NCBI RefSeq assembly: GCF_030814655.1
Contig: NZ_JAUSVK010000001.1
Span: forward strand, 5,587,001-5,651,000
Direction: 5' to 3'
Source of the DNA: Labrys monachus
GTDB taxonomy: Bacteria > Pseudomonadota > Alphaproteobacteria > Rhizobiales > Labraceae
DNA length: 64,000 nt
Part shown: positions 19,872-63,519 of the stretch, piece after piece
Layout of the letters: each line of letters begins with the position of its first letter
How positions within the stretch are numbered: the stretch's first letter is position 1
Translations under genes and position numbers: made by a program
Notes under the pieces: generated by a model
The model's input: only the letters and a program-made list of their open reading frames with translations
What the model was told of the DNA's origin: nothing
Database searches by the model: none

Positions 19872-19936
19872 CGGCTGGCCCTCTTGGGCCGTGCCTGAGT
19901 CCATCGCGGGACCGCGGCGCTTGGCGGGAAGGAAGA

Positions 19937-19953
19937 GCGGACAGGATGTCCGC
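19937..19953. repeat. Short palindrome GCGGACA-GGA-TGTCCGC after hutU
   Basis: A perfect seven-base-arm palindrome 12 bases beyond the hutU stop. It is one of several intergenic palindromes in this window sharing the GGAC-N-NNN-N-GTCC core. Position after a gene could allow a weak transcription-end role, but no U-tract follows in the hutU direction. Confidence 0.65.
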
Positions 19954-19965
19954 GCTCCCGGGGAC

Positions 19966-25162: not shown

Positions 25163-25177
25163 GCAACGCCGGCGAGC

Positions 25178-25480
25178 GCGGACGTCCCGTCCGCCTCTTT
25201 CGGGGCGCCTCGCAAGATGCCGATCGTTCGGCGCGGGTTTCTGGGACTTCCCGCACCGCGGCTTTGTGCGATTTTCCACACTTCGTTGCCTTCTCCCTTT
25301 CGGGAGAAGGTCCCGGCAGGGGGATGAGGGCCTAGTCTTCGACGCGGCGAGCTCAATATTCGCACTAGTATTGCGAACGTCCAGACCCTCATCCGGCGCT
25401 TCGCGCCACCTTCTCCCGCATGGGAGAAGGTAAAGTCGCGCCATTTCCTGCAAACGCAACGCCGATGGACGAGACGTCCG
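25178..25480. repeat. Repeat cluster between importer genes (RIME-like copy B and two palindromes)
   Basis: The gap 25163-25603 holds no gene. It contains GCGGACG-TCC-CGTCCGC (25178-25194), a RIME-like composite palindrome (25289-25430), and TGGACG-AGA-CGTCC (25466-25480). The composite has CCTTCTCCC...GGGAGAAGG hairpins at both ends, a left inner arm GGCAGGGGGATGAGGG and a right inner arm CCCTCATCCGGCGCTTCGCG, the reverse orientation of copy A. Such hairpins after the first gene may stabilise its mRNA and raise binding-protein output over the permeases. Confidence 0.75.
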
Positions 25481-25603
25481 CGCTCGGACGTCGGTCCCTG
25501 AAACGCCTTGTTTCTCGGACGATCCGGGCGCCCTGCCGTCCCCACCCGCATCCCGGTGTGGGTTTCCTGCAGCCGACAGGCTTGCGATCATGAGGACTGG
25601 AGC

Positions 25604-27850: not shown

Positions 27851-27874
27851 AGGCTTCGGCCTTTTCCCGGGGGC

Positions 27875-27969
27875 GCGGACGTCCCGCCCGCCTCTTGCCG
27901 CCCGGCAGGCACGACGCTGCCGGACCGGGCTCGCCAGGCCGAGAGCAAGGGCGGACGAGATCCGCGCCC
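27875..27969. repeat. Palindromic element between importer and HutH-like gene
   Basis: GCGGACG-TCC-CGCCCGC (27875-27891, one mismatch) and GCGGA-CGAGA-TCCGC near 27951-27965 bracket a GC-rich interval with further short inverted repeats. It is a longer member of the GGAC/GTCC palindrome family seen elsewhere in the window. Confidence 0.6.
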
Positions 27970-28019
27970 CTGCCGGCCGGGCTTCCGGACCATTCCCCTC
28001 GCATGTCCAGAGTTTGTCC

Positions 28020-34101: not shown

Positions 34102-36933
34102 ATGTCTCTCGTCCACGAAATCGACTACGGCACGCCGCTCTCCAAGTCCGAGAAGATGGTCACCCTGACCATCGACGGCAACGAGGTGACCGTGCCGGAA
34201 GGCACCTCGATCATGCGCGCGGCGATGGAGATGGGCACGCAGATCCCCAAGCTCTGCGCCACCGACATGGTCGACGCCTGGGGCTCCTGCCGGATGTGCC
34301 TGGTCGAGATCGAGGGCCGCAACGGCACGCCGGCGTCCTGCACCACGCCGGTCGCGCCGGGCATCCGGGTCAAGACGCAGACGCAGCGCCTGGCCGAGAT
34401 CCGCAAGGGCGTGATGGAGCTCTACATCTCCGACCATCCGCTCGACTGCCTCACCTGCGCCGCCAACGGCGATTGCGAATTGCAGGACATGGCGGGCGCG
34501 GTCGGCCTGCGCGAGGTGCGCTACGGCTATGAGGGCGACGATCACCTCGGCCTGGAGAAGGACACCTCCAACCCCTATTTCACCTTCGACACCTCCAAAT
34601 GCATCGTCTGCTCGCGCTGCGTGCGCGCCTGCGAGGAGGTCCAGGGCACCTTCGCGCTGACGATCTCCGGCCGCGGCTTCGACAGCCGCGTCTCCCCGGG
34701 CATGGACGAGAATTTCTTCGATTCCGAATGCGTCTCCTGCGGCGCCTGCGTGCAGGCCTGCCCGACCGCGACGCTCACCGAGAACAAGGTGATCGAGATC
34801 GGCCAGCCCGAGCATTCGGTGGTGACGACCTGCGCCTATTGCGGCGTCGGCTGCGCCTTCAAGGCCGAGATGCGCGGCGAGGAACTCGTGCGCATGGTGC
34901 CCTACAAGGACGGCAAGGCCAATCGCGGCCATTCCTGCATCAAGGGCCGCTTCGCCTGGGGCTACGCCACCCACAAGGAGCGCATCCTCAAGCCGATGGT
35001 GCGCGCCAAGATCACCGACCCGTGGCGCGAAGTGTCGTGGGAGGAGGCGATCGGCCATGCCGCCTCCGAGTTCCGCCGCATCCAGGCCAAGGCCGGCCGC
35101 ACCGCCATCGGCGGCATCACCTCCTCGCGCTGCACCAATGAGGAAACCTATCTGGTGCAGAAGCTGATCCGCGCCGGCTTCGGCAACAACAATGTCGATA
35201 CCTGCGCCCGCGTCTGCCATTCCCCCACCGGCTACGGCCTCGGCCAGGCCTTCGGCACCTCGGCCGGCACCCAGGATTTCGATTCGGTCGAAGAGAGCGA
35301 CGTCGTCATCATCATCGGCGCCAACCCGACCGACGGCCATCCGGTGTTCGGCTCGCGCCTGAAGAAGCGGCTGCGCGAAGGCGCACGCCTCATCGTCATC
35401 GATCCGCGCAAGACCGACATCGTGCGCACGCCGCATGTCGAGGCCGACTACCATCTGCCGCTGCTCCCCGGCACCAATGTCGCTGTTCTCACCGCCCTCG
35501 CCCATGTCATCGTCACCGAGGGCCTGGTGGACGAGGATTTCGTGCGCGAGCGCTGCGACTGGGACGATTTCCAGGAATGGGCGAGCTTCGTCGCCGAACC
35601 GCGCCATGCGCCGGAAGCGACGGCCGCGATGACCGGCGTGCCGGCCGAACTGGTGCGCGGCGCCGCCCGCCTCTACGCCACCGGCGGCAATGGCGCGATC
35701 TATTACGGCCTCGGCGTCACCGAGCACAGCCAGGGCTCGACCACGGTGATGGCGATCGCCAACCTGGCGATGGCGACCGGCAATATCGGCCGCCGCGGCG
35801 TCGGCGTGAACCCGCTGCGCGGCCAGAACAATGTGCAGGGCTCCTGCGACATGGGTTCGTTCCCGCATGAATTCACCGGCTACCGCCACGTCGCCACCGA
35901 TGCCGTGCGCTCGACCTTCGAATCGCTGTGGGGCGTGACGCTCGACAAGGAGCCGGGCCTGCGCATCCCCAACATGTTCGATGCGGCGATCGACGGCACC
36001 TTCCTCGGCCTCTATGTCCAGGGCGAGGACATCGTCCAGTCGGACCCCGATACCAAGCACGTCACCGCCGGCCTCTCGGCGATGGAATGCGTCGTCGTGC
36101 AGGATCTCTTCCTCAACGAGACCGCGAACTACGCCCATGTCTTCCTGCCGGGCTCGACCTTCCTGGAAAAGGACGGCACCTTCACCAATGCCGAACGCCG
36201 CATCCAGCGCGTGCGCAAGGTGATGGCGCCGAAATCGGGCTATGCCGACTGGGAGATCACCCTGCTCCTCGCCAAGGCGCTCGGCTACGAGATGGCCTAC
36301 AGTCATCCGTCCGAGATCATGGACGAGATCGCCAAGATGACGCCGACCTTCACCGGCGTCTCCTATGCCAAGCTCGAGGAAATGGGCTCGGTGCAGTGGC
36401 CCTGCAACGAGAAGGCGCCGGAGGGCACGCCGGTCATGCATATCGACCAGTTCGTGCGCGGCAAGGGCCGCTTCGTCGTCACCGAATACATCCCCACCGA
36501 CGAGCGCACCGGCCCGCGCTATCCGCTGCTCCTCACCACCGGCCGCATCCTGTCGCAATACAATGTCGGCGCGCAGACGCGGCGGACGGAGAATTCGATG
36601 TGGCACGAGGAGGACGTGCTCGAGATCCATCCGCACGACGCCGAGCAGCGCGGCATCCGCGACGGCGACTGGGTCCGCCTCGAAAGCCGCTCCGGCTCGA
36701 CCTCGCTGCGCGCGACGATCAGCGAGCGCGTGGCGCCCGGCGTGATCTACACCACCTTCCACCATCCGGCGACGCAGGCCAACGTCATCACCACGGACTA
36801 TTCGGACTGGGCGACCAACTGCCCCGAATACAAGGTCACGGCGGTGCAGGTGATGCCCTCCAACGGGCCGACCGAGTGGCAGGAAGAATATGAGGCGCTG
36901 GCCAGGAACGCCCGGCGCATCGCGGCGGAGTGA
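34102..36933 (+). CDS. fdsA: NAD-dependent formate dehydrogenase, alpha subunit (molybdenum/tungsten)
   Basis: A 943-residue catalytic subunit. In order: a NuoG-like [2Fe-2S] domain (SCRMCLVE, Cys in PASCTTP), a His-Cys cluster (HPLDCLTC), two ferredoxin-type clusters (CIVCSRCVRACEE, CVSCGACVQACPT), then the molybdopterin domain beginning CAYCGVGC. The active-site segment CARVCHSPTG has cysteine, not selenocysteine. It oxidises formate to CO2 with electrons passing to FdsB. Both flanks carry palindromic repeats. Confidence 0.96.
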   Translation: MSLVHEIDYGTPLSKSEKMVTLTIDGNEVTVPEGTSIMRAAMEMGTQIPKLCATDMVDAWGSCRMCLVEIEGRNGTPASCTTPVAPGIRVKTQTQRLAEIRKGVMELYISDHPLDCLTCAANGDCELQDMAGAVGLREVRYGYEGDDHLGLEKDTSNPYFTFDTSKCIVCSRCVRACEEVQGTFALTISGRGFDSRVSPGMDENFFDSECVSCGACVQACPTATLTENKVIEIGQPEHSVVTTCAYCGVGCAFKAEMRGEELVRMVPYKDGKANRGHSCIKGRFAWGYATHKERILKPMVRAKITDPWREVSWEEAIGHAASEFRRIQAKAGRTAIGGITSSRCTNEETYLVQKLIRAGFGNNNVDTCARVCHSPTGYGLGQAFGTSAGTQDFDSVEESDVVIIIGANPTDGHPVFGSRLKKRLREGARLIVIDPRKTDIVRTPHVEADYHLPLLPGTNVAVLTALAHVIVTEGLVDEDFVRERCDWDDFQEWASFVAEPRHAPEATAAMTGVPAELVRGAARLYATGGNGAIYYGLGVTEHSQGSTTVMAIANLAMATGNIGRRGVGVNPLRGQNNVQGSCDMGSFPHEFTGYRHVATDAVRSTFESLWGVTLDKEPGLRIPNMFDAAIDGTFLGLYVQGEDIVQSDPDTKHVTAGLSAMECVVVQDLFLNETANYAHVFLPGSTFLEKDGTFTNAERRIQRVRKVMAPKSGYADWEITLLLAKALGYEMAYSHPSEIMDEIAKMTPTFTGVSYAKLEEMGSVQWPCNEKAPEGTPVMHIDQFVRGKGRFVVTEYIPTDERTGPRYPLLLTTGRILSQYNVGAQTRRTENSMWHEEDVLEIHPHDAEQRGIRDGDWVRLESRSGSTSLRATISERVAPGVIYTTFHHPATQANVITTDYSDWATNCPEYKVTAVQVMPSNGPTEWQEEYEALARNARRIAAE

Positions 36934-36962
36934 GGGTTTGGGTAGTCGTGCCTGAGAAGGTC

Positions 36963-37145
36963 GCGCTGCCCCTCACCTCTATCCTCTCCCCGCAAGCGGG
37001 GAGAGGAGGCACGATCGCCGCGGCTTCCGTGTTGCGCGTCTCATCTCGCGCAACCGCCGGGCGAGACTCGGCGCTTCAAGCCGCCCTGAACGTCGAAGCC
37101 CCCTCGCCCCGCTTGCGGGGAGAGGATAGAGGTGAGGGGCAGCGC
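36963..37145. repeat. Perfect 39-bp inverted repeat between fdsA and fdhD
   Basis: The left arm (36963-37001) starts GCGCTGCCCCTCACC and ends CCCCGCAAGCGGGG; the right arm (37107-37145) is its exact reverse complement. The 105-base interior holds another hairpin, GTTGCGCG-N8-CGCGCAAC. Each arm is itself a hairpin end. No coding sequence is present in the gap. Confidence 0.85.
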
Positions 37146-37178
37146 AACTCTCTTTAAGGGCCATAGATCCGAGACCCC

Positions 37179-38060
37179 ATGACGAACGAGACGCCATCCC
37201 CCACCCGCTCCGTCACCCGCCTCGCCTGGCGCGAAGGCGTGTTCTCGCAAGGCGAGCGTGTCATCCCCGAGGAGACCGCCGTCTCGCTCGTCTATGACGG
37301 CGGCTCGCATGCGGTGATGATGGCGAGCCCTGCCGACCTCGGGGATTTCGCCGTCGGCTTCTCGCTCACCGAAGGCATCATCGCCTCGCCCGACGACATC
37401 GCCGAGTTCGAGCGCGTCGACCATGACGAGGGCATCGAGCTGCGCCTGTGGCTGAAGGGCGACCGCGGCGCGGCGCTCGGCGCCCGCCGGCGCATGCTGG
37501 CCGGCCCGACGGGCTGCGGCCTGTGCGGCATCGACAGCCTCGCCGAGGCCGTGCGCAAGCCGCGCGCGATCGAGAGCGCGGCGACCTTCTCGCCCGCCGA
37601 CGTCGAGGCGGCGCTGGCCTCTCTGCCGTCCGCGCAGGAACTCGGCCGCCTGACGAGGGCGGTGCATGCCGCCGGCTTCTGGACCAAGGCCGACGGGCTC
37701 CTCGCCCTGCGCGAGGATGTCGGCCGGCACAACGCGCTGGACAAGCTCGCCGGGGCCCTCGCCGCGAGCGATGCGGTTGCAGGAGCGGACGTCGCGACAA
37801 CCGGCAAGGCCGATGGTGCGGTGACGTCCGCGCTCCCGGGCATCCTCGTCCTCACCAGCCGCATCTCGGTCGAGATGGTGCAGAAGGCGGCGATGATCGG
37901 CGCGCCGGTGGTGGTGGCGGTGTCGGCGCCGACCGCGCTCGCCGTCCGCATCGCCGGCGAAGCCGGCATCACCCTGATCGGCGTCGCGCGGTCCGACGGC
38001 TTCGAGATCTTCACCCATCCGCACCGCATCGTCCCCGAAAGGCTCGCCCATGTCGCATGA
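37179..38060 (+). CDS. fdhD: Formate dehydrogenase sulfurtransferase/accessory protein
   Basis: A 293-residue FdhD (FdsC) protein. It delivers sulfur to the molybdenum cofactor, and the required cysteine pair is in GPTGCGLCGIDSL. The remaining core matches the family: LREDVGRHNALDKL, LTSRISVEMVQKA and VAVSAPTALAV. About 16-18 extra residues (roughly 202-219) interrupt the usual short loop between ALDKL and LVLTSR; they correspond to a palindromic DNA element. Its 3' end overlaps fdsD. Confidence 0.94.
   Translation: MTNETPSPTRSVTRLAWREGVFSQGERVIPEETAVSLVYDGGSHAVMMASPADLGDFAVGFSLTEGIIASPDDIAEFERVDHDEGIELRLWLKGDRGAALGARRRMLAGPTGCGLCGIDSLAEAVRKPRAIESAATFSPADVEAALASLPSAQELGRLTRAVHAAGFWTKADGLLALREDVGRHNALDKLAGALAASDAVAGADVATTGKADGAVTSALPGILVLTSRISVEMVQKAAMIGAPVVVAVSAPTALAVRIAGEAGITLIGVARSDGFEIFTHPHRIVPERLAHVA
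37782..37836. repeat. Palindromic element inside fdhD reading frame
   Basis: GGAGCGGACGTC (37782-37793) faces GACGTCCGCGCTCC (37823-37836), apart by 29 bases. The arms match the intergenic GCGGACG/CGTCCGC palindromes in this window. The segment is in frame and adds residues absent from usual FdhD proteins. Confidence 0.65.
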
Positions 38061-38277
38061 TGGATCGGAAAAGCTCGTAATGATGGCGAACCAGATCGGC
38101 AAGTTCTTCGCCTCGCAGCGCGAGGAGAGCCGGGTGCCGGGCATCGCCGAGCATATCCGCAAATTCTGGGATCCGCGCATGCGCGAGAAGATCTTCGCCC
38201 ATCTCGACGCCGGCGGCGCCGGCATCGATCCCACGGTGCGCGAGGCGCTGGAGAGCCTGCGACAGAAGGCGGACTGA
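38050..38277 (+). CDS. fdsD: NAD-dependent formate dehydrogenase, delta subunit
   Basis: A 75-residue protein matching FdsD: VMMANQIGKFFASQ, then IRKFWDPRMREKIFAHLDAGG. It is the small subunit of NAD-dependent formate dehydrogenases and associates with the FdsA assembly. The start at 38050 lies inside the fdhD 3' end. It closes the fdsGBACD run. Confidence 0.93.
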   Translation: MSHDGSEKLVMMANQIGKFFASQREESRVPGIAEHIRKFWDPRMREKIFAHLDAGGAGIDPTVREALESLRQKAD

Positions 38278-38695
38278 GTGCCGGCACGCCGGTGGGCGGG
38301 TCCCCCCGACCCGCCTTCTCTGCACCCGCGACGGTTCCATGCCGGTCGGGGACTGGCATACCGGGCTTGCTTTCCCGCACAGCCCTCCCACATAAATATC
38401 CGGGCAGGCGCTTTATCGCACCGATCTTCGGGCTTTCACCTTGCTCGTGGCGCGCCATCTTGATATGGAACTGCGCATCTGATGCTCGCCTGTCCTGGGA
38501 CGCGCGCGCCGGCACGACCATCATCGATTGCCGGCCCGTGTTCAGACAATAGATGGAACGACGTTCTCGCCTTGCGGGCCATGCGCCGGCCGGTCGTGCC
38601 TTCGATAAGGGCACGCCGTCTGAAGTTGCCCGATGCAGCTTCGCCGCGCGGCGGGAACGATGATCAACGCAAACCGCCGGCGCCAGGAAAACTAT
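38278..38695. other. 418-base gap with hairpin after fdsD
   Basis: No gene is visible. GGCGGGTC (38295-38302) and GACCCGCC (38308-38315) form a strong hairpin 18 bases after the fdsD stop; only a short T/C-rich tail follows, so terminator function is plausible but not certain. The rest must carry the rpsA promoter. The cmk gene that commonly precedes rpsA is not here. Confidence 0.55.
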
Positions 38696-40393
38696 ATGTC
38701 CTTACAGACAAACGTGATGCGCGACGACTTCGCTGCGATGCTCGACGAGACGTTCGGCACCAGCGACATGGCCGAAGGTTCGGTCGTCAAGGGAACCGTC
38801 GTCGCCATCGAGAAGGACCTTGCGGTTATCGATATCGGCCTGAAGACCGAAGGCCGCGTCGCCCTCAAGGAATTCAACGGACCGGGCCGCGAGAACGCGA
38901 TCAAGGTCGGCGATGTCGTCGAAGTCTATCTCGAGCGCATCGAAAATGCTTTGGGCGAAGCCGTCATCTCGCGTGACAAGGCTCGCCGCGAAGAGAGCTG
39001 GGTCAAGCTCGAAAAGTCGTTCGAGGCCAATGAAAAGGTCGACGGCGTCATCTTCAACCAGGTCAAGGGCGGCTTCACGGTCGATCTCGACGGCGCCGTG
39101 GCGTTCCTGCCGCGCAGCCAGGTCGACATCCGGCCGATCCGCGACGTGACCCCGCTGATGAACGTGCCGCAGCCCTTCCAGATCCTCAAGATGGATCGCC
39201 GCCGCGGCAACATCGTCGTTTCGCGCCGCACGGTCCTCGAAGAGAGCCGCGCCGAACAGCGCCACGAGATCGTCCAGAACCTCGAAGAGGGCCAGGTCGT
39301 CGACGGCGTCGTCAAGAACATCACCGATTACGGTGCGTTCGTCGACCTCGGCGGCATCGACGGCCTCCTGCATGTCACCGACATCGCATGGCGCCGCGTC
39401 AACCATCCGACCGAGCTCCTGACCATCGGCCAGCAGGTCAAGGTCAAGATCATCAAGATCAACCACGAGACGCACCGCATCTCGCTGGGCATGAAGCAGC
39501 TCCAGGCCGATCCGTGGCTCGGCATCGACGCCAAGTATCCGCTGCAGGCCAAGTTCACCGGCCGCGTCACCAACATCACGGACTACGGCGCGTTCGTGGA
39601 ACTGGAGCCGGGCATCGAAGGCCTGATCCACGTCTCCGAAATGTCGTGGACCAAGAAGAACGTCCATCCCGGCAAGATCGTCGCCACCTCGCAGGAAGTG
39701 GAAGTGCAGATCCTCGAGGTGGACCCGATCAAGCGCCGCATCTCGCTCGGCCTCAAGCAGACGCTTTCCAACCCCTGGGAAGATTTTGCCGACAAGCATC
39801 CGAACGGTTCGGTGGTCGAAGGCGAAGTCAAGAACAAGACCGAGTTCGGCCTGTTCATCGGCCTCGACGGCGATGTGGACGGCATGGTCCATCTCTCCGA
39901 CCTCGACTGGAACCGTCCGGGCGAGCAGGTCATCGACGATTTCCGCAAGGGCGACATGGTCAAGGCCGTGGTGCTCGACGTGGATGTCGAGAAGGAGCGC
40001 ATCTCGCTGGGCATCAAGCAGCTCGCGGGTGATCCCTTCGTCGATGCCGGCGAACTGAAGAAGAACCAGGTCGTCACCTGCGAAGTGACCGACGTGAAGG
40101 AAGGCGGCATCGACGTCAAGATCGCCGGCACCGACCTCACGGCGTTCATCCGCCGTGGCGACCTCGCCCGCGACCGCGCCGACCAGCGCCCCGAGCGTTT
40201 CGCCGCCGGCGAAAAGGTCGACGCCCGCGTCATCCAGTTCGATCGCAAGGCCCGCAAGGTGCAGGTCTCGATCAAGGCTCTGGAAATGGCCGAGGAGAAG
40301 GAAGCGATCGCGACCTACGGCTCGTCCGATGCCGGCGCCTCGCTCGGCGACATTCTCGGCGCAGCGCTGCGCGCCCGCACCGAGAAGCGCTGA
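38696..40393 (+). CDS. rpsA: 30S ribosomal protein S1
   Basis: A 565-residue protein built of six S1 RNA-binding repeats, recognisable by recurring DYGAFV-type cores (DYGAFVDLGGIDGLLH near residues 212-227; DYGAFVELEPGIEGLIH next) and paired ISLG(M/L)K motifs. It anchors mRNA to the small ribosomal subunit. AGGAAA five bases before 38696 selects this ATG; longer frames begin in non-conserved sequence. Codon use looks strongly biased to C/G-ending codons, as expected for a highly expressed gene. Confidence 0.96.
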   Translation: MSLQTNVMRDDFAAMLDETFGTSDMAEGSVVKGTVVAIEKDLAVIDIGLKTEGRVALKEFNGPGRENAIKVGDVVEVYLERIENALGEAVISRDKARREESWVKLEKSFEANEKVDGVIFNQVKGGFTVDLDGAVAFLPRSQVDIRPIRDVTPLMNVPQPFQILKMDRRRGNIVVSRRTVLEESRAEQRHEIVQNLEEGQVVDGVVKNITDYGAFVDLGGIDGLLHVTDIAWRRVNHPTELLTIGQQVKVKIIKINHETHRISLGMKQLQADPWLGIDAKYPLQAKFTGRVTNITDYGAFVELEPGIEGLIHVSEMSWTKKNVHPGKIVATSQEVEVQILEVDPIKRRISLGLKQTLSNPWEDFADKHPNGSVVEGEVKNKTEFGLFIGLDGDVDGMVHLSDLDWNRPGEQVIDDFRKGDMVKAVVLDVDVEKERISLGIKQLAGDPFVDAGELKKNQVVTCEVTDVKEGGIDVKIAGTDLTAFIRRGDLARDRADQRPERFAAGEKVDARVIQFDRKARKVQVSIKALEMAEEKEAIATYGSSDAGASLGDILGAALRARTEKR

Positions 40394-51212: not shown

Positions 51213-51590
51213 GGATCGGCAGCGCGGGATCTTGCCCGTATGCTCTCGAGCAAAGCGCGTTTAGGCAGAAACGGCGCTTTGCTCTAACTCCTTGTTTTTC
51301 GACGCGTCTTTGCGCTTTGCTGATTCCGTCAAAACACAAGACGCTCTGGGATCCGAGAATTGGCCGCCTTCTCCCGGGCCGGGAGAAGGTCCCGGCAGGG
51401 GGATGAGGGTCTAAACCTCGACGAATAGCTCGATAAAGATGTTTGAATTGTCGAAGTTGAGTCCCTCATCCGGCGCTGCGCGCCACCTTCTCCCACACGG
51501 GAGAAGGCAAATCGTGCCTTCGCCGGCCAGGTCCGATGCCTGTGGACAGAATGTCCACGCACCCCGGCACACCTTCAGCAGGATAAGCCG
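51213..51590. repeat. Repeat-filled gap (RIME-like copy C and palindromes)
   Basis: No gene is present. About 51255-51345 resembles a common rhizobial intergenic sequence rich in CGCTTTGCTCTAACTCCTTG. A RIME-like composite occupies 51367-51507, with CCTTCTCCC...GGGAGAAGG ends and the same orientation as copy B. GTGGACA-GAA-TGTCCAC is at 51542-51558. As in the importer at 24308, the repeat sits between binding protein and permease. Confidence 0.75.
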
Positions 51591-55996: not shown

Positions 55997-56137
55997 CCTT
56001 CTCCCAAGCGGGAGAAGGTGGCGCGCAGCGCCGGATGAGGGTCTAGACTTCTGCAATTCCAGCGAAGCTATTGAGCTATCTACGTCGAAGTTTAGACCCT
56101 CATCCCCTACCGGACCTTCTCCCGACTCGGGAGAAGG
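55997..56137. repeat. RIME-like composite palindrome, copy D
   Basis: CCTTCTCCC-AAGC-GGGAGAAGG at the left and CCTTCTCCC-GACTC-GGGAGAAGG at the right, with inner arms GCGCAGCGCCGGATGAGGG and CCCTCATCCCCTACCGG. The same orientation as copy A (19732). Confidence 0.8.
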
Positions 56138-63275: not shown

Positions 63276-63519
63276 GCCCTCGCCGGGGCGGTTGGGGACC
63301 GATCACCGATCGCCCCCTCCCCTCCGACAGAGCGGGCCGTATGCTCCCGGGAGAAGCGCCACCTCCCGGGAGCGCGGACGTCCCGTCCGTCCGCCTCTCG
63401 GAAACGCCGAGCGCCGAGTGAAACGGAGCGCCGGCCGCTCCTCCACCCCCGGCGCCGGCGAGCGAAGGAGCGTGTCCTCACCGAATCCGCAGCCTTTTCG
63501 CCAGACAGCAGCCGCACGG
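63276..63519. repeat. Gap with short palindromes
   Basis: It contains ACCGATCACCGATCGCC near 63299 (related to 21808), a CTCCCGGGAG hexamer pair near 63344-63371, and GCGGACG-TCC-CGTCCGT at 63374-63390. No gene is visible in this 244-base stretch. Confidence 0.6.

Follow-up and report, generated by a model that had tools for sequence, protein, structure and literature searches.

An FdhD loop in Labrys monachus very probably lengthened in frame by a decayed REPIN

The window is the whole stretch of DNA analysed, 64,000 nucleotides (bases 5587001-5651000) of the 6.92 Mb single-contig genome of Labrys monachus (G000). It holds fdhD and copies of a small dispersed repeat (Table 1). A long inverted repeat of the CCCCTCACCTCTATCCTCTCCCCGC type lies at 36970-37140, between a formate dehydrogenase-like gene and fdhD. 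Another repeat family, with GGATGAGGG-type arms, forms inverted repeats at 25290-25440, 51401-51471 and 56033-56105. Within fdhD itself the sequence-only reading had marked an inverted repeat, and its arms are indeed there: the left one is GAGCGGACGTC, and the reverse complement of that sequence, with a 2-base indel, occurs at 37823-37835. Four of the relatives compared belong to the genus Labrys: G001 (matching Labrys sp. KNU-23), G002 (matching Labrys sp. WJW), G003 and the outgroup G004.

Table 1. Features of the fdhD region and related repeats (window coordinates unless a contig or locus is given)
Feature	Position	Strand	Evidence or remark
REP, same family as fdhD arm, outside called genes	19934..19962	-	32.4 bits
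REP, same family as fdhD arm, outside called genes	25174..25195	+	22.2 bits
REP, same family as fdhD arm, outside called genes	25467..25485	-	17.2 bits
REPIN, same family as fdhD copy	27864..27976		gap between called genes (end 27847, start 28020); covariance model 31.3 bits; left REP 19.6 bits
fdhD, formate dehydrogenase accessory sulfurtransferase	37179..38060	+	293 aa, no internal stop; NCBIfam TIGR00129 190.4 bits; PDB 4pde_A E 7.6e-50
Very probable decayed REPIN (inverted REP pair) within fdhD, ~17 added residues	37776..37842		covariance model R1 22.4 bits, E 0.019 in 112 kb; loop 36 aa vs 19
Left arm GAGCGGACGTC of fdhD hairpin	37783..37793	+	2 bases short of family consensus
Right arm of fdhD hairpin, REP half-element (GACGTCCGCGCTCCCGGG on + strand)	37823..37840	-	nhmmer 14.0 bits; top of 1902 gene interiors
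REP, same family as fdhD arm, outside called genes	63365..63389	+	25.4 bits (L256 15365-15389)
cobN	G000:C1:2515159-2518674 (L212 16159-19674); L311-L315		two loops long in four Labrys, short in G004

The FdhD loop was measured between the motifs HNALDK and TSR in 110 loci, with two genomes counted twice; 97 could be read and 13 were missed by the search pattern. It has 19 residues in 88 loci. The other lengths are 17 (one locus), 20 (one), 23 (four, being two genomes twice each), 36 in G000, 44 in G003 and 55 in L068, a Rhodospirillales MAG in which a tandem TDALPRD-like repeat occupies the same place. The window copy thus exceeds the norm by 17 residues, within the 16-18 extra residues given by the sequence-only reading for a loop that is normally short. 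The loops of G001 and G002 are the 23-residue ones, and among the loci read this excess of four is confined to the G000-G003 clade. G004 has the usual 19 residues.

By its folding alone the hairpin in fdhD is within chance (z -1.77; 12 of 200 shuffles were equal or better), and an Rfam scan of 36500-39000 gave no match up to E 1. Its significance comes from its likeness to a repeat family, not from the fold. The sequence GCGGACGTC has nine copies in the window, two of them the fdhD arms, against 2.3 expected, a number reached in one of 100 shuffles. Across the genome GCGGACGTCCCGTCCGC occurs 147 times with up to two mismatches, compared with 27 times for the same pattern read backwards, and inverted pairs of it about 50 bases apart are present. 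An iterated profile of this REP was searched against 2.43 Mb, made up of 2.40 Mb of sampled blocks (8000 bases of which are N) and 29 kb of the window. It found 106 REPs at E<1 and none in the reversed-sequence control. The consensus, CCcGGGagCGCGGaCgTCccGtCCGC, has GGAG or GGTG ahead of the stem and lacks GTAG.

The 106 REPs group into 77 clusters, 17 of which are plain inverted (+-) pairs. Most clusters (71 of 77) lie outside called genes, with a contact of at most 8 bases; four extend over gene ends and two are interior: fdhD holds one, and an HSP90-like gene the other, which is a lone and weak match. A further 60 loci, which partly overlap the 2.43 Mb sample, gave 115 REP matches; two of them contact a called gene, in each case close to a gene end. 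Genes were called with a purpose-built codon model, for which three genes of the window served as training set, not with a standard gene finder, giving 2017 genes that cover 79.5 percent of bases. An earlier gene scoring was dropped; it produced antisense shadow frames, and only one of 18 distinct proteins belonged to a Pfam or NCBIfam family.

The right arm of the fdhD hairpin matches the REP profile with E 0.2 for 2.43 Mb. It falls below the inclusion limit and so is not part of the profile, and it is the top REP match among the interiors of 1902 of the called genes; the runner-up scores 12.1 bits. The left arm is undetected by the single-REP profile. The window copy is also found by a pair model, R1, built from 14 REP pairs of G000 with fdhD left out. 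Three other in-gene candidates were judged to be chance or simple repeats. They are the match in the HSP90-like gene (12.1 bits, G000 5689103), one in pgi of L236 (19.4 bits) and one in a YkuD gene of L250 (30.0 bits), where the sequence is a repetitive run of PGQxD.

A census that took no repeat as its starting point compared the gene interiors with 1394 intergenic stretches by blastn, after genes shorter than 300 bases were excluded and 60 bases were trimmed from each end. Near the top were fdhD (7 partners, 42.8 bits) and two loops of cobN, one with 11 partners and 43.7 bits, the other with 3 partners and 87.8 bits. The reversed control reached up to 7 partners and up to 49.1 bits; therefore the census by itself is clear for the 87.8-bit cobN loop only, and fdhD is not clearly above the control. 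Other gene interiors scored 44-62 bits with 3 partners, and L247_6797_7117 had 8 partners at 32.8 bits.

The strongest evidence for an intergenic palindrome that entered fdhD in frame, as the sequence-only reading had proposed, comes from G003. Its fdhD has a full REPIN at the same place, plain in the DNA, with a covariance model E of 3.5e-9. The R1 search of fdhD loci covered 112 kb: G003, the window copy and 11 others (L003-L008, L010, L013, L031, L068, L069). None of the 11 others, G001, G002 and G004 among them, was found up to E 5. Relatives with the same extra loop and no palindrome, which would have spoken against an insertion, did not turn up: G003 has both loop and palindrome, and G001 and G002 have just four extra residues. 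In 2000 shuffles the G001 loop resembled the G003 insert (P 0.0035), and the G002 loop showed no significant likeness to it (P 0.43).

A tree built from the FdhD core and a fragment of FdhF (named from its sequence, unscanned) groups G003 with G002 and G001 (support 100), joins G002 with G001 (99) and sets G000-G003 apart from G004 and the outgroups (95). With the G003 fdhD insert as query, matches at E<=0.001 numbered 50 in G000, at least 44 in G003 (including the query itself, both strands), 46 in G002, 37 in G001 and 0 in G004, the last among the best 40 of 48 candidates; the counts are rough, as palindromes may count on both strands and at most 40 candidates per genome were scored. Thus the fdhD repeat family is present in four Labrys and was not found in G004.

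AlphaFold was run on FdhD with 34 relatives, and the model has a mean pLDDT of 85.7, with residues 201-215 and 110-116 below 50. The insert falls between a helix (183-196) and a strand (222-225). The extra residues thus probably form a disordered surface loop in this model. The top PDB match, 4pde (FdhD with GDP), is also short here, leaving a 17-residue gap in the alignment.

The REPINs are mostly free of stop codons: in the 33 strong ones, 5.1 of the six frames are open on average, compared with 3.4 in 660 random intergenic segments of similar length. The REPIN lengths are spread over the three classes modulo 3 (13, 10, 10); by chance, therefore, roughly one insertion in three would keep the frame, and the others would presumably be lost to selection. 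A preferred reading frame is typical of RPE-1 of Rickettsia. The two well preserved in-gene copies compared here are read in different frames, as ...SADILSA... in FdhD of G003 and ...GARTSCP... in CobN of G002.

Transposase genes of the PF01797 type are present in all five Labrys genomes (23 matches). REPs of the fdhD family stand on both sides of the RAYT loci L145, L150 and L154 (all G002) and L158 (G000) among the 20 searched, and weakly at L152 of G001 (E 0.19 and 0.46). RAYT-type genes flanked by this REP are thus found in three of the five genomes, in one of them weakly. The remaining 15 of the 20 loci, both G003 loci included, have no REP of the family. G004 has PF01797 genes though the REP family was not found there. 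A RAYT-like gene at G000:C1:2486470-2486700 contains a TAG in its reading frame and may be a pseudogene.

The palindrome was also looked for inside other genes, a check suggested by the sequence-only reading, and this led to cobN. Searched over 2.0 Mb, R1 gave 124 rows at 67 distinct places, 64 of which were checked (the weak ones at L218 7783, L207 17702 and L232 13992 were omitted): 54 lie outside called genes, 7 overlap them partly and 3 are inside. One of these three is backed by further evidence, a REPIN at genome positions 2516517-2516597 (35.2 bits, E 7e-4) in cobN (PF02514, 1010 bits). Palindromic repeat sequence is present in seven of the eight long CobN loops, and the repeats mostly differ between species. 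The first loop has a REPIN of the fdhD family in G000. In G001 it holds an inverted repeat that belongs to a second REP type, related to the first; G002 has a CCCTCCCC-type palindrome there, and G003 a short stretch of CCCTCCCC-type sequence. The second loop of G002 carries a REPIN of the fdhD family that is well preserved, and the G003 fdhD insert, used as query, finds it again (C54 6252-6321, E 1.4e-8). In G000 and G003 this second loop is occupied by CCCTCCCC-type palindromes, and G001 has a longer loop without family assignment.

Searched with the second-loop insert of G000, the second loop of G003 (C22 120475-120613) gives its better match, 79 percent with E 7.4e-25, on the opposite strand; on the same strand the match is 72 percent with E 1.2e-14. 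The opposite orientation, a weak sign in a palindrome, hints at separate insertions. The same insert matches the first-loop insert of G002 (E 2.6e-20). Both kinds of insert are dispersed: in rough counts from at most 40 candidates per genome, matches at E<=0.001 in G000, G003, G002, G001 and G004 number 15, 30, 43, 74 and 0 for the first-loop insert of G001 and 40, 97, 28, 35 and 0 for the second-loop insert of G000. The CobN loops are counted as holding at least two unrelated families, not three, because both REP subtypes find several of the same sites, G003 C5 near 68280 being one. In CobN of G009, a genome from a different family, an in-frame CCCTCCCC-type sequence lies at L317 ~2060-2130, within a few residues of where Labrys has the first CobN loop.

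Taken together, the fdhD insert is very probably an in-frame, decayed REPIN from a repeat family of Labrys. REPINs are non-autonomous mobile elements of two inverted REPs; one of them would have inserted into fdhD in an ancestor of the four Labrys, with a RAYT transposase of the genus as its presumed mover. As it is mostly stop-free in all frames and its length kept the frame, fdhD would have survived with a longer loop. Decay may then have been uneven: the element is well preserved in G003, reduced to its arms in G000 and perhaps to a four-residue scar in G001 and G002. The scar reading draws on one shuffle test, since G002 gave no significant likeness and the pair model lists neither genome. 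The insert would bring FdhD no benefit. A single ancestral insertion is somewhat favoured by these data. Two independent REPIN insertions, in G000 and in G003, into the same tolerant loop, with an unrelated short change in G001 and G002, would still be in-frame REPINs; this variant is rather unlikely. In its favour, an 11-nt difference separates the left flanks of the two inserts, the likeness of the G002 loop to the insert is not significant, and the CobN loops, filled by different repeats in sister species, demonstrate that a loop can be reused. Against it, repeat family and place are identical in G000 and G003, the G001 loop is remnant-like, and the four extra residues are seen only in the clade among the loci read.

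That a GC-rich, variable linker happens to hold a hairpin is very improbable. The poor fold score fits such a linker, as does the distant FdhD of L068 with its different tandem repeat, but the clear REPIN at the same place in G003 disfavours it, and the near-constancy of the loop length and the rank of fdhD as the top REP match of all gene interiors also stand against it. Retention of the hairpin for a function, as mRNA structure or as a useful peptide loop, is likewise very improbable. The frame has stayed open in all four species with extra loop residues, which speaks for it; yet loop sequence and length vary by species (36, 44, 23 and 23 residues), the left arm of G000 has lost two bases and the loop is predicted to be disordered. 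An in-frame, decayed REPIN is thus the reading kept here.

According to the sequence-only reading, fdhD would be a case of an in-frame palindrome in a free-living alphaproteobacterium. Other free-living alphaproteobacteria are S. alaskensis and E. litoralis. Genes of both are among the in-gene REP cases in the part of Di Nocera (2013, PMC3733652) used here, so fdhD is not the earliest example in such bacteria. That part reports in-gene REPs in several free-living species, more than half of the inserts being dimers or groups that code for 20-30 residues, and REPs at about the same site in recB of X. campestris and X. oryzae. Its GTAG- and CGTC-tagged REPs resemble the fdhD element as REPs and dimers inside ORFs; CGTC-tagged REPs, however, have no dedicated transposase, unlike the fdhD family with its RAYT loci and flanking REPs. 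The main text of that paper, as distinct from its supplementary gene list, does not name fdhD, formate dehydrogenase or Labrys. Literature searches returned nothing on the subject for Labrys with REP, and cobN is not named among the matches listed for cobN with intragenic palindromes.

REPINs and BIMEs with their RAYT, in the sections of Bertels and Rainey (2011, PMC3116915) drawn on, are likewise inverted REP pairs, dispersed and mostly extragenic, with the RAYT flanked by the same REP; there, of 1067 occurrences of the 16-mers from the three REP groups, just 14 overlap genes. The fdhD copy differs from them in lying within coding sequence, and the family consensus has GGAG or GGTG, not GTAG, before the stem. 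The parallel with Rickettsia palindromic elements drawn by the sequence-only reading is a fair analogy, as these too are palindromes within unrelated genes, and Di Nocera (in the part used) equates RPE-4 and RPE-6 of R. conorii with CGTC REPs. The Labrys element nevertheless fits best as a REPIN, from a REP family that has RAYT genes close by. It differs from the Rickettsia elements in that its copies are mostly extragenic and its REP stands at RAYT loci; the two copies compared share no common frame. Enterobacterial RU sequences (127, 168 and 103 bp), as described in parts of PMC2759123 and PMC2229807, are small intergenic repeats also found inside genes, and are set beside the fdhD element by that description.

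Intragenic REPs being already known (PMC3733652), fdhD adds a further case; of greater interest is that different palindromes have repeatedly come to fill the same loops. The evidence is evenly balanced on whether the two CobN loops and the one FdhD loop are recurrent in-frame landing places in one Labrys clade, where at least two unrelated palindrome families (REPINs of two related subtypes and the CCCTCCCC type) would have inserted, decayed and replaced each other between sister species, so that loop extension continues. fdhD offers a directional example of a presumably mobile palindrome joining a conserved enzyme: the outgroup has none, one species keeps it almost intact, another has a decayed copy and two more perhaps a scar. 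Together with CobN it suggests that loop tolerance may decide where in-frame palindromes survive.
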